From the NCBI GenBank assembly GCA_963678705.1, contig OY783219.1, positions 5,022,001 through 5,086,000 of the forward strand: a stretch of 64,000 nucleotides of DNA. The letters run 5' to 3'. The position numbers were made by a program, and so were the translations under genes. This DNA comes from Panorpa germanica. Its lineage: Eukaryota > Arthropoda > Insecta > Mecoptera > Panorpidae. Below the pieces are notes generated by a model, which did no database searches, had not been told where the DNA came from, and saw only the letters and a program-made list of their open reading frames with translations. Within the stretch, counting starts at the first letter, position 1, and each line of letters starts with the position of its first letter. Of this stretch, positions 2,791 through 60,469 are shown one piece after another.

Positions 2791-4060
2791 AATTTAATAT
2801 TTTTAATTTGAAACATTGGACCTTGTAAGGTTCTAAAAAAACTAAGAAATCTTAAAAATAAATTAAATTAAAATGGTACTGTGAATGACTACGCGTATTG
2901 CCATATGCTAAACAATTTGAATTAAATACAAAATACAAAATTAAATTAAAGCAGTGAGTGGGATTTACCAAGATAATATAATTAATGTCTTTAAGATTGA
3001 ATTTAACGCAGATGTCCCATTAAACCTGGTTAGATAAAAACCTACTTCTAGGTAACAACAGTTACCTAGAATATTTTCTCAATAATTGTCTTTTTTTAAA
3101 TATTTTATAACAAGATAACTGATAAGAAATTTTAAGAAATAAAAAACAAATTATATATATTGATTTAAATGTAAATGGAACATCGTTTTGAATTTTATCC
3201 TTTTTATCTACATGTTATATCAACAATCTGGAGAGCATGGACAAATAACTTGGATTTATCTAATTCTGTAACGATTTATCAGTTTCCTGATAAGTACCAG
3301 TACGCAGTTAGCTGCGTTATTTTCAGCTCGTGGATCGATTAATGATCAGGCATCAGGCAAATTGAGATACAACGCCACGCTATATGTAAAGCAGTACTGA
3401 AGACATGACTCCACTGACGAATAACGCAAATATAACTTTATATAAACCTTATACTGCATTTTCCGAGCACTTTTCTACAAACAATTTGGATCTGAAGCTA
3501 TTCTAGAACTCGACCTAGTATAGGAATCGATATTTGAGCGATATAGGGTGATTTATGGATAACAAAAAGAAGAGAGTATTCCTTTTGAAGGCATTTGGGA
3601 TCTAAAACGGAGGCGAAAGTTTCAGAAGCAAAATGCATTACCCCACCCCATAAACTTAAGTTTTAAAATACGATATGTTTTTCCATAACATACACAAATA
3701 TATTTTCTATCTGTGGTTTAAAACATGCTTGCTGAGATACAAAAGTATTAAGCAAGGTAATAAACCACATTTAACTAACTGTTGAAAAGTCTAACGGAGA
3801 TATATGGAGTACCTGTTTGAGGCAACCTTATTGAACTAACATTCCAATACATTAACCCTTACTGTCATAAAACCATATATCACAAAGTAATTGTAAATTC
3901 CTCACTACAGGTACCCTAAGCGTGTCATCTCTGCATGCAGATCTGTGGACACTTACTTTTAATGAACTATACAACAGTATATCATCTTACATTACTTGAA
4001 TAAGTAAAGATCTTCCAGCAGCTGTGTGTTTCCAATCTGTTAACACTTACACCGTAATCG

Positions 4061-4120
4061 TTATCAGCTGAGTCTGTTCACGTTCTGACCTGATAACATC
4101 TAGGCATCAATTGTTATCAG
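4061..4120. promoter_or_regulatory. GATA-site cluster
   Basis: Three GATA motifs in 60 bp of non-repeat DNA: TTATCAGCTG (also an E-box), CTGATAAC and TTATCAGC. A similar trio lies at about 3255-3293. Confidence 0.3.
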
Positions 4121-4916
4121 CAAGTTACAATTTCATCTTTATTAAAGCCACGCTGACAAAACCAATAGTCATAATATCATCTAATATGTCGCCTAAATTT
4201 CGTAATTTCTATGATTCACTTATATAGATTGATTTGGATCACATGATTTGCACAAATGGCATGCTGAGCCTTATCACGTCTTGTAATACATAAGTATATA
4301 ATAAATAACAACAAAAATTCACCGAATTATCTTAAAGACCAACGCGTACAAAAATCAATACCGGATTCAAGTTTTTGCTGCTAGCAATTTCGCATCCAAA
4401 TTGTTTGTCCTTTGGTATTCAAAAACTCAGTATTTAACCTTTGTGATCTTCCTCTTTACCAGTATGGCTAGATACATGATAGGTCTATCAATTCCTTGCC
4501 GGTATATTTATTACTAATTAATTCTCTTATGGTAAAGCTAATTGCTCATTGTTCAAGTCATGAGGCGTTTACATTCAACACAAAATCAACTCAGTTTGGA
4601 GCTGATAGATAATTTAATGATTTACTCGATAAGGAGGCAAGATATTGCGTCTTGTGTTCAAATTGTACATCACTAGAGAATGTGATCTGAGTCCAAAATA
4701 GAATTGTCTTATCTTCTTGTGATATATTCAATATAATAATAGCAATTTTAGCGCGTCATTGGTTGGATGATGAAATAAGCTTAAAATAAATGATAATCCT
4801 AACGAAGATCATCTAAAAATGTGGAAAAAAGTAGTAGAGAATGTGTTGGAAAGAATATGGGAGAAGTTGTTAGGCTTAAGTTGGACTGCGAAACAAAATA
4901 CTGCACTTACATCTTA

Positions 4917-5001: not shown

Positions 5002-5250
5002 AGTAAACAATTTAGTGAAGTGCCCTATTTAGTGACGTTTCTATCACTATTTCACTTCAATTATAGTTCGCATCAACTTTATCTTCATTTGCATTCCGAC
5101 AGGTGAAGTAATTTCGCCATTTGTAGACGATAAAGTATACATTTTATATGAAAAAATGTGAGAAACTGAACTATAAATGAACTCTTTTATGACAAAAAAA
5201 TCATGACGCATCTTAAATATGATGTCAAAGTGACTCCAAAATGTTTACTG
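4999..5250. mobile_element. MITE family A (CCCAGTAAACA termini), copy 1
   Basis: Starts CCCAGTAAACAATTT and ends AAAATGTTTACTG. It has a shared interior (GTGACGTTTCTATCACT, GAACTCTTTTATGAC, GATGTCAAAGTGACTCC), about 250 bp, no coding capacity. Inserted beside an (AT)n tract. It is one of six copies here; the transposase source is unknown. Confidence 0.8.
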
Positions 5251-6752
5251 AGATATATGGAGGGAGAATGATGGACCTGAAAGTGTGTCCAAAATGTGTG
5301 CGAGAGAGAAAGGTATATGTTCCTATTTGTTCTCTATGCGCATGAGTCTAAAGTGAGAGTTGTCACTTTAAACATAGGTGATACACACTCCATATATTTT
5401 TGCAATTTTGTTTCAAAATTTCAAGTCAATCGACCGACTACTTTTCGAGTTTGCGAGCACACACATACACAGGCTGAATTTTATTTATAAAGTATACATT
5501 GTATATAATAAAATCGTTAAAAAGGTAAATAAGAAATAATGATAAATGTGTTTTTTTACTTACAAAGTCTTAGAAAGTAGATGATGGACAACAACATTTA
5601 TCAAATAATATTTAACAAATTTTCCAGTCAATTCTTTTCAGATTTATGAACTTTTAACCTTTATATAATATACAAGTAATAACGATGTCTTATTTGAAAC
5701 CTCTTGACCTCTGACACAACCCCTTGAATCACAAAACAAGTTACCAAACAAGCCCTGTGTCCACTAGGGGTCAGTTTAAATTTCTAGTGAATTATATTCA
5801 TTCAGATAACCCAAGGGAATAACTGGCACCTAATTAAAATAAGTATTTATAAAATAGGGGTAGTTTTATAAGGAAAAATATCACCTTAAAAATTCAGTGA
5901 CAATTTCTAACCCCTATTTAATGTATTTGCAAGGGTCAGTATATCATAATATTGTTGTATTCTTTTTTGTAAGGGTCAGAAGTTTGATTCCGCAATGCGT
6001 GACCAGTGTCAAAAGGGTCAAGGGGTTAAATTATTTTTATAGTTGAAATTTGTTATGAAACACATTAGGGATGTATGTATGTTCATAGTTCATAATCTGG
6101 AGGACGTCTTACAGGGAGCAAACTACTTGTAACTTGTGATTTATGTTTTCTAATTATTTTATTTCTATGGTGGGAATATTTATAGGATTGGATTTGATGG
6201 GAACATATGATACATCTCCGGGCCGGGGCAATTTCTATATTAGTGTTTTACCAAAATGGTAAATAATTCTTTTCAGTTATCAACAGCGCTTTTTAAATAA
6301 TTTTCTTGACTTGAAAGATGACTTTCTTAAGACACTTTGCAGATTCAATACTGGCCATCGGAATTTGTGAAATCGAACACATTTGCGATGTCTTCAAATA
6401 AGACAATTGTTAACTCCGTTTAAACAATATGCCCTAGTGGTGTCGGTATTTTAAATATCTCTCTAACCGTCTCCCCCCTGCGTTGTTGTTGTTAAGGGGT
6501 TATATTCAGTTATTAAGCCCAAAAGAAGCGATTTTTTAATGTAAAAATTTATACGAATATTATGGTAACTTTTAACTGTATTTTAACAATTTGTATTTGT
6601 AAAAATAATAATCTTAAAGCTGCTATAGCTGGTCTCCCGGAGCTCCTTTCAGAAAAGGCAACTTGCGGTGACCACCAGTGACCACGATATCTCTGGACTG
6701 AATCATGTAAAATAAAAAAACTAAACGGATTTCGTTAAAGTAATGTATAATC

Positions 6753-46864: not shown

Positions 46865-48410
46865 AGATTTAATGAACCAAACCATATTTGATATCGGATG
46901 TATTCCCAAAGCGATCCAAGTTAACCAACCAATGCGCTTCTTCGCTTGCGCTTAAAATATGACCAAGGTTCAAATGTGCACACATTTTTAAAATTTATTT
47001 AACACGGTAATAGAACGATAGAAATTTTATTTTTAGAGTAATTAAAAGTATCTCTAATTTTTTGTTATTGTCAATGAACCAACCATATTAGAAGCAGGAT
47101 CGCATTTCTGAAATGACTTCAGTGGTCGTTTGGGGGTACTGTATCAAAACTATTTAAAAATACGATAAATAATCGAATACGTGTGCATTTTGAAAATAAT
47201 TTGGTAATAGATAAATGGTTTTGTGCAATAAATAAAAGGTATTATTAAATGTCTTGCACAGTGCTGCCCTCTATTGTTCAGTGCAACCCTTGTTTGTGAG
47301 ATTTAACAATACTTTTTGTTTATTTCAAAGTTAAACATATCAATGTTGAGTGTCTTATCATTTTACCTAAAGACGTACATAATGTTTCAGTAAGGAGGCC
47401 CCCAGCCTCTCCTTTTTGTTTGTGTAAATTTAATAACTAGAGATTTAATTATCATTTAACAAGAAAGGCACTCTCATGATACATGATTATTAATATAATG
47501 GACTGTTTAAAGATCCCACGATTTGATAATTTGCTCACCAAATTTTAAGTCTAATTTTGGGCGTGACTTGTTTGTAAATATATATAGTGCTATTTTCTCT
47601 AATTCCATTTAATAAAAATTGAGAAATGTTAACAATAAATATAAAACACGCATTCAAAATCGATTATGCACTATGAAAAAATATGTGTGATTGTGAAATG
47701 TAAAAAAAAGAAAATATTCATAAAAATATTGCTCATTCAATAGAATGCATTTTTTTTTTTATAAATTCGTTGTATATCTTTAGTTCAGAAATTATGATAA
47801 TAAGATGGAGATACTGATTAAAACCAAACAAATGCTTCAGGTTTTATAATATAGATGGCAGAGTTGCTAGCAAAGATTACAACCGTTTACTAGTTAGTGC
47901 TCTTTTAGTTTAGATGGCGGTGAATACTTATCCAAGATCACAACCTTTTACGATTTATTTGCTGCTTTACAATTTAAGTTACCCAAGATCACAACCATTT
48001 GCTATTTAGAATACTACTCAAGAATTTAATTATATAAAGATATACCCGACAAATTGAATATTCAGTGTGTTTTAGAACTACTAAAGTTGGCGATCGATTT
48101 TGTTTATAAAGAAAAAGACAGATCAATTTTTATTTAAGAATAAAAAAAATTAATTTAAAAAAAAAAATGGAATTCTTGGAATATTTTAAAAAAAAAAACG
48201 CCTGGTTTTATGCAATTCTAATTACTCATTTACTTTTGGTTCAGCTATTGTTATTTAGATGGCGACAATGATACCAATGGTGGGAGTAATTATTCATAGT
48301 ATATAAGAGACGACATATCGTGCAGAGCTTCAGTGTAGCGTTAGCTACTCCAGTGAAAGGAGGGGTAGGCGTGCCGTTTTTTTTACAAATGCGTATAAAG
48401 AATGTTGAAT
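46865..48410. other. Intergenic DNA
   Basis: No gene seen. Around 47855-48010 an irregular motif AAGATCACAACC is repeated three times with ATGGC(A/G)G blocks. Confidence 0.4.
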
Positions 48411-48616
48411 AAATTTGTAAAGCCAGCCTACCGGCTGGCTTTACAAATTTATAGGAAGGGGCCTTCGGCCCCTTCCTGCATTCGCGAAGCGAATGCAAGA
48501 ATGTTACTATGTACGCGCGAAGCGCGTACATAAAACCGGGGCTTTAGCCCCGGTTTAAAATATATAGTAAATGCTAGAAGGGACCTTCGGTCCCTTCTAG
48601 CATTTACTATATATTT
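48411..48616. repeat. Array of six contiguous perfect hairpins
   Basis: Arms (perfect) and loops: 48411-48428/48433-48450 (18 bp, TACC); 48453-48463/48467-48477 (11 bp, TTC); 48477-48485/48489-48497 (9 bp, GAA); 48508-48518/48522-48532 (11 bp, GAA); 48533-48542/48547-48556 (10 bp, TTTA); 48558-48585/48589-48616 (28 bp, TTC). The stems differ in sequence from one another, most have GC-rich cores inside an AT-rich region, and only about 13 bases in the whole block lie outside a hairpin. A 96-codon - strand frame crosses half of it by chance. No family is recognised. Similar runs of small GC hairpins are known from some organelle genomes, but that link is a guess. Confidence 0.9.
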
Positions 48617-48708
48617 ACCTCGTCTGACAATATTGATACTCTATATGTCTATACATATATATATACAGTTACATCGGATAAATACAAGTTTTAATTTTTA
48701 ACCAGCAT

Positions 48709-48925
48709 GAGCCACCGTGGCCCAGCCGGTAGCGTCGCCGCCTCGTAATCGTACGGTCCCGGGATCGAAACCCAGCCCCGCCGAATAAAAACGTAAAAAA
48801 AATCTCTTGCCATGCACCCCCCCCCCCCCAGCCCTGACCACACAAACTCATATACAGCGCGACGAACCCTGACCGCCCCCCCCCTGCACTACGCAAAAAA
48901 AAAACCCTATCCTATAAAAAAAAAA
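48709..48925 (+). mobile_element. tRNA-derived SINE
   Basis: A pol III box A (TGGCCCAGCCGG, 48718-48729) and box B-like GGATCGAAACC (48762-48772) sit about 33 bp apart in a tRNA-like head. After it come two C-runs (about 48817-48829 and 48876-48884) and A-rich tails at 48895-48904 and 48916-48925. The acceptor and T stems do not pair well enough for a functional tRNA, so SINE is preferred. Confidence 0.7.
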
Positions 48926-49433
48926 GCTACATTTTGCAATTTTTTTTATTGATTTTTTTTTTTACATTTTTATTTATTTCATATTTTTATTATATTTATA
49001 CTTAAAAAGATTGAAGTCAGTTTGAAGCAGATGGACAAAATTCAGCTGAGTGGTGAAGACCTGAAATAAAAATACAAAGTCGTAAGAGAGATGTATACAT
49101 GACAGCTTTACTAGTACTGGTCACAGTACATGTGCCTATACAAACGGACATGACCAAGTCCAATGTTTCAGTTTCCTATGGAACTATCACATTGGAAATG
49201 AATATCAACTATGGAACGACAGTTAAGTATTAAGAGGCACCCGTCTAAAACTTTACTTCTGAGCCACGGGGGCCCAAAAAATGAAGTGTTAAAACTTATT
49301 TAATATGCAACAAGACAAAACAGAACACAAATGTACTACAAATGCCTAAGGTAGATCTGAACGCATTGTGTTTACATTGGAACCCATTCCATCACTACAA
49401 TATAAAACAGATTTTATAAAATTTTCATTACAT

Positions 49434-49591
49434 CTCGAGGAATGAAGAAAATCCTATTGTTGATAAAGTTAAAAATTCAACTTTTTTATCAATTTTAACA
49501 AGAGTATAACCTTCTTACAGCTCGAGGAATTGAGAAAATCCTATTTTTGATAAAGTTAAAAATTCAACTTTTTTATCAATTTTAACAAGAG
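49434..49591. repeat. Tandem duplication of a 71-bp unit
   Basis: Two units (49434-49504 and 49521-49591), each from CTCGAGGAAT to TTTTAACAAGAG, 87-bp period, with only a few differences. Each unit holds an imperfect palindrome (TTGATAAAGTT ... AACTTTTTTATCAA). Confidence 0.8.
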
Positions 49592-58912: not shown

Positions 58913-60469
58913 ATTGACTTTCATAATAAAAGAAATATTTTAAAATCTTTTTCGATGTATTTTCTTTAATGGCAGGGGAGTGCAAGTGCACCCCTCGCAC
59001 TCCCTCCCGACACTCATGCATATAAGATTATAACTTCATCTATAATTATGTATTTGATACCTGTTTGTTTGAATAACCTAAGGCCTAATTAATAAATAAT
59101 AAACAATGATAATTAGATAACTAATTTGTGAAGAAAGTAGTCCCTGTACCGCAGGTTATCAACGCCTGCTCCGTACTCTAAAACAACTCTTCATAATAGT
59201 TGTTTTACATGCATGTAGGAACATAAAAGAAAAGTTTTCCATTTTGTTTTACAAAATGGAATATAATTTATATAAATATTTGTCCGTAGTAAGTTTTAAT
59301 TATGTTTTGCACCAGTTTTGCCACTTTTCGCGTTGTCAGTCTGTATGTAGTACACAGAATATAGAAGCCTTATTGAAACAAACAAACAAACAGGCAGGCA
59401 AACAAACATACAACACAGAATAAACTATTTTAGCAGTTGTTGAACTACTTATGAAACAAACTTATAATTTTATTAATAAAAACTTTATTTTCAGTCATTG
59501 TTGTTTTATTTGTTTAGAAATTGTTAATTTCAATTGTCTGTGTCAGTAGTGAGTGTTAGGTATCATTCCCACTTATTGCTTTAGTTTCATTTTATACCGT
59601 CACGATCATTTTATATCGTGACGATGGTTTTACCCATACTCGCATCTATAAGTTGTAAATTATGTATTGCAAATGTTTATAAATGTATATATTGTTTTAA
59701 GAGCTAATAACTTTTGAAAGTTGATGCACTCAAATGAATATTAAGAAAAACAGACAGAAAAGTTTGATTAAATCCATTAAATTCTGTCTCAGCTGTGAAA
59801 AATACTGAAGTTACAGTTAGGAAAAGCCCTTAAGAGCAGCCCGCGCTTTGTGGATACATTCTAATATTTCTAAATACATTCTACAAGGCGGAATAAAGCA
59901 AATTGGTTTCTTTTTTTAGGGAAATAATAAATGAATGAAATTGAACTTAACGTAGGCCTTGAAGGCCGTCGGGCCAACAGACCATGAACTCTTTAAGAAG
60001 CCACGGGGAAAACGTTTATTTAATTAAAAAAAAAATCTGTTAGATATTCTGCAATTTTAATGAAATATAGCTAAGTGTTTAACTTAAGATTCTAGAGATA
60101 TTTTATAAACTACTGATAAAAGCTTGTCAGAATGTTTGGTCTTTGCCTTCTTAACTTCCGGTTCAGGGCGGAACTGCTAAACGCAGCTAGTCCATGGTTG
60201 ACTGACTTCTCCGCTCAATTGACTTCAACTAATGAGGCGTTTTCTTTTAGTTTATTTTACAAACTTAAAATTTCCGTTCTGTCTTGAAATTTACTTACAT
60301 ATATATATATAGTTGTATAAATAGAAAAAATATTATTAAGAAAATTATATAAGATATAGACGTCCAAGGAGGGGGTAAACGGGGCAGTGGGAGACGGGTA
60401 ACAAACAAAATGAATTCGACAATTTGTATTTTAATGTAATTATATATTGTTATTGATTTTATACATAAA

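Follow-up and report, generated by a model that had tools for sequence, protein, structure and literature searches.

Hairpin-rich repeats are known from organelles, as sections of three reports describe (PMC2670323, PMC2800124, PMC6649704). The mitochondrial hairpin elements of sponges and Allomyces and the palindromes of Volvox are hairpins in series, which also occur as single hairpins dispersed between organellar genes. The mitochondrial palindromes of nematomorphs have perfect arms that evolve in concert, for which template switching was proposed; they are long and lie inside coding genes, and no common tip rule is seen in the section of that report cited here (PMC6649704). Quasipalindrome correction, known from bacteria, yeast and primates as scattered events, homogenizes arms, inverts spacers and produces multi-base changes in both arms. 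According to sections of the respective papers, a template switch from one inverted repeat to the other leads to homogenized arms and inverted spacers (PMC8604942), template switching can create and maintain the hairpins of RNA genes (PMC8794818) and, in yeast, the conversion of imperfect into perfect repeats is transcription-associated (PMC3820800). In the study of RNA and palindrome evolution it has long been asked how stems remain perfectly paired when both of their arms change (section of PMC8794818). Finally, DNA loops of the type GNA, with a sheared G-A pair, are described as very stable, and d(GNA) mini-hairpins with a C-GNA-G tip have been studied as oligonucleotides (Yoshizawa 1997, as cited in a section of PMC6479982).

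The family described here is nuclear, gene-like and rule-bound. In contrast to the organelle elements, it lies on nuclear contigs, is confined to a promoter-bearing unit and has C-G-closed GNA or TNC loops. In the open PMC library, with the terms used, we found no literature on a comparable nuclear hairpin family, nor was d(GNA) found reported there as the organizing rule of a nuclear repeat. The window, i.e. the whole stretch of 64 kb that was analysed, corresponds to C16:5022001-5086000 in a 464-Mb assembly of an insect-like genome. Its contig measures 14.5 Mb and those of its relatives 10-48 Mb, so an organelle location does not apply.

Six perfect hairpins placed end to end had been reported in the initial annotation, and we found them at 48409-48616, all described here on the + strand. 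H1 (48409-48452) has arms of 20 bp, not 18 as first given, and a TACC loop. The arm lengths reported for H2 (48453-48477, 11 bp, loop TTC), H3 (48477-48497, 9 bp, loop GAA), H4 (48508-48532, 11 bp, loop GAA) and the terminal hairpin H6 (48558-48616, 28 bp, loop TTC) are correct, as are the TTC and GAA triloops. H5 (48533-48556), first given arms of 10 bp, has 11-bp arms with the 2-base loop TT, or 10-bp arms with a 4-base loop. Such an array was held to be unlikely by chance in AT-rich DNA, and folding bears this out: as single-stranded DNA, 48401-48630 folds with -95.7 kcal/mol vs -26.4 ± 3.6 for 200 dinucleotide shuffles, none of which was as good (z = -19.5). A scan of the 64 kb for hairpins (arms of at least 9 bp, loops of 0-8 bases) returned 177 rows, mostly AT microsatellites in overlapping registers; five had arms with at least 50% GC, of which four are H2-H5 of the array and the fifth, whose loop has 8 bases, lies at 59598. 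Twenty Markov-shuffled windows gave 2-11 hairpins each, none with a GC content of at least 0.5.

By DNA search we retrieved four near copies (92-97%), two copies on contig C4 (77-78%) and three partial ones on C1 (76%). Fifteen fixed bases of the conserved head, described below, have 39 exact matches in the genome vs 1 for the reversed-pattern control; with 17 fixed bases and at most one mismatch, 48 matches were obtained vs 2 in the control. The locus at C20:6.15 Mb was reached by a separate array-unit pattern, whose spacing was wrong for the subtelomeric units and which nevertheless exposed further members. A C14 match of this pattern (L071) was rejected as a member, being without triloop hairpin; by eye it reads like a coding gene, which we take to be chitinase-like. 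The tRNA-like segment led to six further places, five of them with arrays (L072-L076) and one (L077) with the tail and the tRNA-like segment and no array. In total, array loci number at least 54 on 17 contigs (39 + 10 + 5), each with at least two triloop hairpins with arms of at least 7 bp (four in the window copy). A foreign, organelle-like or viral fragment, one of the three origins first suggested, finds no support: the array has 53 or more relatives within this assembly, spread over 17 large contigs. A single repeat family for all six stems, named beforehand as a finding that would count against the first interpretation, was found insofar as the whole array belongs to one family; no named family was found for it.

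The copies are enriched towards contig ends. For the 39 exact-head copies, the distance to a contig end is at most 250 kb in 13, against a mean of 0.98 and a maximum of 7 over 10,000 simulated draws, and at most 2 Mb in 29 (mean 7.8, maximum 18). These counts are not independent events, since copies are clustered and duplicated, and they refer to the exact-head copies, the 15 later-found loci being outside the test. Among the latter, the seven array loci of C20 (10.1 Mb) are at 3.4-8.7 Mb, in the interior and not at the ends. For the window copy and the four relatives nearest to it, a contig end is at least 3.5 Mb away, and for the two C4 copies 1.3-1.7 Mb. Six chromosome-end copies have 2.7-3.0 kb in common with the C8 copy at 96.8-99.0% identity. 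Chromosome-end copies carry units of about 102 bp, each comprising five hairpins, that are repeated head to tail (e.g. L049:4800-5100), which means that arrays also grow by tandem duplication; the earlier statement that tandem duplication cannot be involved thus does not hold for every array.

The part upstream of the array has a fixed layout. An upstream repeat region (47822..48009, +) contains TAGATGG at 47852 and 47911, a third motif being at 48256, and similar stretches are present upstream of the C6 copy and of two other C16 copies. Among the 49 loci, of which 140-640 bases each were examined, 47 have an upstream TAGATGG on the + strand and 0 have one on the - strand. It is followed by a TATA box, TATATAA (48300..48306, +), and by TCAGTGT (48330..48336, +; predicted start at 48332), which is present in 48/49 loci; TCAGT is the arthropod Pol II initiator. 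From the TATA box to the A of TCAGT we counted 32 bases in 44 loci and 31 in three, so that the fixed spacing of a Pol II unit is seen in 47/49 loci, with no TATA box found in two. In the C6 copy, one of these two, an insertion has separated the TATA box, which lies 1.24 kb upstream. The conserved head, CAGTGTAGC..GCTACTC..GTAGGCGTNNCGTTTTT, covers 48332..48384 (+). Since the TATA box and the upstream motifs are copied with the unit, it has spread via DNA and not via its RNA. No ORF of at least 130 aa overlaps the unit, the longest from a start codon (96 aa) being antisense.

Downstream of the array is a conserved tail, TTTACCTCGTCTGACAATATTGAT (48614..48637, +), with 12 genome matches vs 0 for the reversed control; all 12 adjoin one of the 39 head-bearing arrays. 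The SINE that had been noticed 90 bp away from the array corresponds to a tRNA-like segment (48700..48790, +), and wherever a relative has retained the tail, this segment accompanies the hairpins. We obtained at least 16 genome matches for it, distributed over 15 places; 14 of these places are array loci. Words that by eye resemble box A and box B, as would fit a tRNA-derived SINE, lie here in the 3' part of the unit; ARAGORN detected no tRNA. In contrast to SINEs, the segment is internal to the unit and low in copy number.

An AATAAA at 49065..49070 (+) is a possible, weak poly(A) signal, of a kind common in AT-rich DNA. It is found at the matching place in four C16/C19 copies and three aligned C1 copies, and 38 of 39 loci have an AATAAA 250-1000 bases past the head, a count made in AT-rich DNA without a control. 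Contiguous homology breaks at about 49096 and resumes at 49091-49216 with C6 and C16 copies, the segment of about 0.54 kb before the resumed homology being absent from the window copy. Because homology resumes beyond AATAAA, it does not set the 3' end of the unit. A splice donor, GTAAGAG at 49082, was considered as a putative exon end; it is absent from the C1 copies, which keep AATAAA. In the chromosome-end type, the 3' part differs from that of the window type.

The hairpins of the family obey a common rule at their tips. We counted perfect triloop hairpins with arms of at least 7 bp and unpairable outer loop bases, AT-only tips being dropped. In 39 loci with 444 hairpins, the closing pair is C-G in 442, and the loops are GNA (225), TNC (97), ANA (61), TNT (39) or other (22); ANA and TNT are the forms expected from CpG decay of GNA and TNC, because the arm ends in C. 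Ten held-out loci gave 98 hairpins, all closed by C-G, with 88 GNA/TNC loops, nine ANA/TNT and one other; in five more held-out loci (arms of at least 6 bp requested, the shortest being 8), all 35 hairpins were closed by C-G, 33 with GNA/TNC and two with ANA. Combined, 575/577 are closed by C-G, 443 have GNA or its complement TNC, and 554 are reached with the CpG-decay forms, numbers that are not independent given that copies are related by duplication. The six stems had been called unrelated; they have the closing pair and the loop rule in common.

Outside the arrays, the rule is obeyed by none of 128 triloop hairpins with arms of at least 5 bp in the window and by none of 136 in the 66 kb flanking nine relatives. 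With AT-only tips dropped, the figures are 0/53 and 0/40 (closing C in 15/93), and at the array cut-off (arms of at least 7 bp, AT-only tips dropped) 0/13, where only 13 hairpins remain. The dispersed single hairpins of organelle elements thus have no counterpart in the window and these flanks, and the suggested patchwork of inserting micro-palindromes is not borne out. The commonest loop is GNA or TNC in each of 24 named stems (548 hairpins), which were picked from the same hairpin counts and are not independent of them. Nine stems carry GNA-type loops only, nine TNC-type only and six both; the occurrence of both strand senses favours a rule of DNA over a rule of one RNA strand. If the 24 stems have a common ancestry, the tip rule may be partly inherited. 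An energy test of the loop rule was uninformative: the parameter sets assign one energy to all 48 triloops, AAC of the RNA set being the exception, and, the tables being without a triloop bonus, the hyperstability of the tips rests on the literature. Within the window, H2, H3, H4 and H6 obey the rule. H1 has TACC where three of seven window-type copies have TAC, and H5 is the sole hairpin that clearly breaks the rule, its loop departing in relatives too. Among relatives, the loop of H2 is GGA, GTA, TGT or TCC, and that of H6 is GAA in one C16 copy (C16_4436) and TAC in C19.

The two arms of a hairpin change together. In H6, compared over 14 copies (11 distinct), 13 of 29 pairs have changed on both sides and no one-side change was observed. 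Among the 317 cells of this comparison, 51 were double-changed and nine unpaired, with neither one-side change nor wobble; 97.2% were paired, vs 27-47% with slid partners and 80.4% in shuffles. Five measures were compared with the shuffles, and one of them, the number of further pair types, was not higher (17 vs 16.1; 222/500 as high). H1 has changes on both sides in the C4 copies. Seven window-type copies showed double changes in 20 of 102 predicted pairs and a one-side change in four, two of these in hairpins (G-U).

Stems, linkers and loops also differ in their diversity. In 53 five-hairpin units from 26 loci, for which up to six substitutions were allowed, favouring conserved stems, mean pairwise diversity was 0.000-0.034 in arms, 0.087-0.164 in linkers and 0.197-0.536 in loops. 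The family is in this respect like the sponge elements, with conserved stems (0.00-0.03) and variable loops (0.20-0.54). Exchange of units between arrays may contribute to this pattern. Among 17 chromosome-end copies selected for exact first stems, the difference amounts to 2.25% in the flanks and to 18.6% in the first two loops; the first loop is GAA in 17/17, all of the loop difference coming from the second, which means that loops do not mutate uniformly.

In addition, identical stems were found with reverse-complementary loops, GAA vs TTC in H6 and GTA vs TAC. Two C19 loci, L075 (C19:582850-583700) and L076 (C19:3535550-3536400), have an identical 29-bp stem with the loop TAC in one and GTA in the other, and a 214-bp hairpin block is in opposite orientation between them at 97.2% identity. 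On either side of the block the orientation is kept (95.5% and 83.7%), and its ends overlap in inverted tail copies. The other hairpin common to these loci, with GAA vs GCA, is not a simple inversion. Arm homogenization without wobble and spacer inversion, the marks of template switching, are thus both observed, bar the two one-side changes in hairpins.

We think it somewhat probable that the family is a dispersed, promoter-bearing non-coding unit, the palindromes of which are kept perfect at the DNA level by template switching from arm to arm. Of the three options first offered, a structured RNA or DNA element with its own function or life is the best fit. The unit is made up, in this order, of TAGATGG motifs, TATA box, TCAGT start, head and palindrome array, to which one branch adds the tail and the tRNA-like segment. 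It is enriched near chromosome ends and has spread as DNA, given that its promoter and flanks are copied as well. In a single-stranded phase, an arm would fold back on the C-GNA-G tip, and synthesis from the folded tip would copy one arm onto the other, or go through the loop. Such tip-primed copying would correct the stems, changing both arms at once, and would flip loops to their reverse complement and multiply hairpins; the middle of the loop would drift while the stems stay corrected. The sequence predicts transcription of the unit from a Pol II-type promoter. We infer a 3' end and template switching as the process, and the element would be self-maintaining and mostly selfish rather than a host gene. 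The family agrees with the three published findings on arm homogenization, on the hairpins of RNA genes and on repeat conversion, and beyond these it has a fixed tip by which fold-back would be favoured; correction that is known as scattered events would here be sustained over whole arrays. In a bolder form of this explanation, possible and put forward tentatively, the nuclear, gene-like family would carry its information in the shape of the DNA and not in the sequence: hyperstable C-GNA-G fold-backs would rewrite the arms, perfection would come from replication and not from selection, and the family would spread among chromosome ends, its own promoter opening the strands.

It seems rather unlikely to us that these are structured non-coding RNA genes, in which selection on the transcript keeps the stems paired. 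The conservation of TATA/initiator, head and tail while neighbouring sequence diverges would fit such genes, as would the compensatory changes in the stems. However, a selected RNA should tolerate G-U, and the inner arms of 49 loci (548 perfect, 32 with one mismatch) show no excess of G-U over A-C mismatches (A-C 12, G-T 9, other 11). The absence of one-side changes in H6, the presence of loops in both strand senses and the variation of hairpin number and order between copies also speak against this explanation. At the gathering level no Rfam family was detected: the best weak match reached 39.6 bits vs a threshold of 100, and 11 weak matches at E ≤ 1, on both strands, are to families that are unrelated. 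A point against the DNA-level explanation is that stems of much the same perfection would result if an RNA fold were under purifying selection helped by template switching.

We regard it as unlikely that the palindromes are carried by a non-autonomous transposon with a preference for insertion near chromosome ends, a reading which may overlap the others. It would agree with the 54 array loci and with the observation that several copies share a starting point at TAGATGG and differ in the sequence that precedes it. As compared with MITE, Helitron or other transposon ends, this left point is common to some copies only, others having 3-kb blocks; indeed, the match of six chromosome-end copies to the C8 copy over 2.7-3.0 kb is a segmental duplication. 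Neither a terminal inverted repeat nor a target-site duplication was noticed, without a copy-by-copy search, and the copying of the TATA box makes RNA-based retroposition unlikely.

That independent mobile palindromic micro-elements piled up, or that an organelle fragment was inserted, is highly improbable: conserved stems and variable loops are as in the sponge mitochondrial elements (section of PMC2800124), but about 130 kb of sequence outside the arrays contained no such element, the loops of the Volvox type are for the most part TTTA/TAAA and not GNA (section of PMC2670323), and the arrays keep the same upstream head and promoter. Searches gave one weak 33-base match in phages (E 0.07), no match in plasmids, none in a prokaryote genome collection with one exact unit pattern and, in viral contigs, one single-hairpin match, a 16-base palindrome in unrelated sequence. 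An assembly artefact or contamination is hardly conceivable, since perfect short palindromes are a known artefact shape but 54 loci on 17 contigs have subfamilies, common flanks and covarying arms.

The family offers, in one genome, hundreds of related palindromes in which stems, loops and linkers stand side by side with a fixed tip and inverted paralogues. The contributions of DNA tip, transcription and selection can thereby be measured locus by locus. Should arm-to-arm template switching at the DNA level be the true explanation, compensatory changes, which are commonly read as proving that an RNA is functional, could arise in bulk without RNA function.

Several further observations concern single copies. 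The genes neighbouring the window copy, read by eye, are presumably RREB1/pebbled-like and CNOT4-like. In L049, the word TATCCA.GCTTGTTAAAT..AAGAAG..CGTTT was seen by eye on both sides of the chromosome-end unit (4531-4600 and 5100-5150), where it resembles an old direct repeat around the unit. In L075 and L076, neither head nor initiator was found within the 851 bases examined; terminal-type hairpins are multiplied and lengthened in this subfamily, with perfect arms of 48, 29, 29, 32 and 34 bp, ACC/GGT ends and GNA-type loops, and an inverted tail copy precedes the array.

Downstream of the window unit, an 87-bp tandem repeat is present in two copies (49428-49591). The same repeat occurs in opposite orientation, in about 15 copies that are cut by the locus end, at L009:1-1333, from where it is about 1.2 kb to the C6 promoter. 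This C6 copy (L009, C6:12483300-12491300; 2498-2575, 3816-4237, 5098-5448 and 5983-6117) is interrupted by extra sequence at two places: about 1.24 kb, flanked on either side by GTAGCGTC, separate the promoter from the head, and the tRNA-like segment contains another 0.86 kb. Its H3 and H6 stems have single mismatches, which would fit a copy that is no longer maintained.
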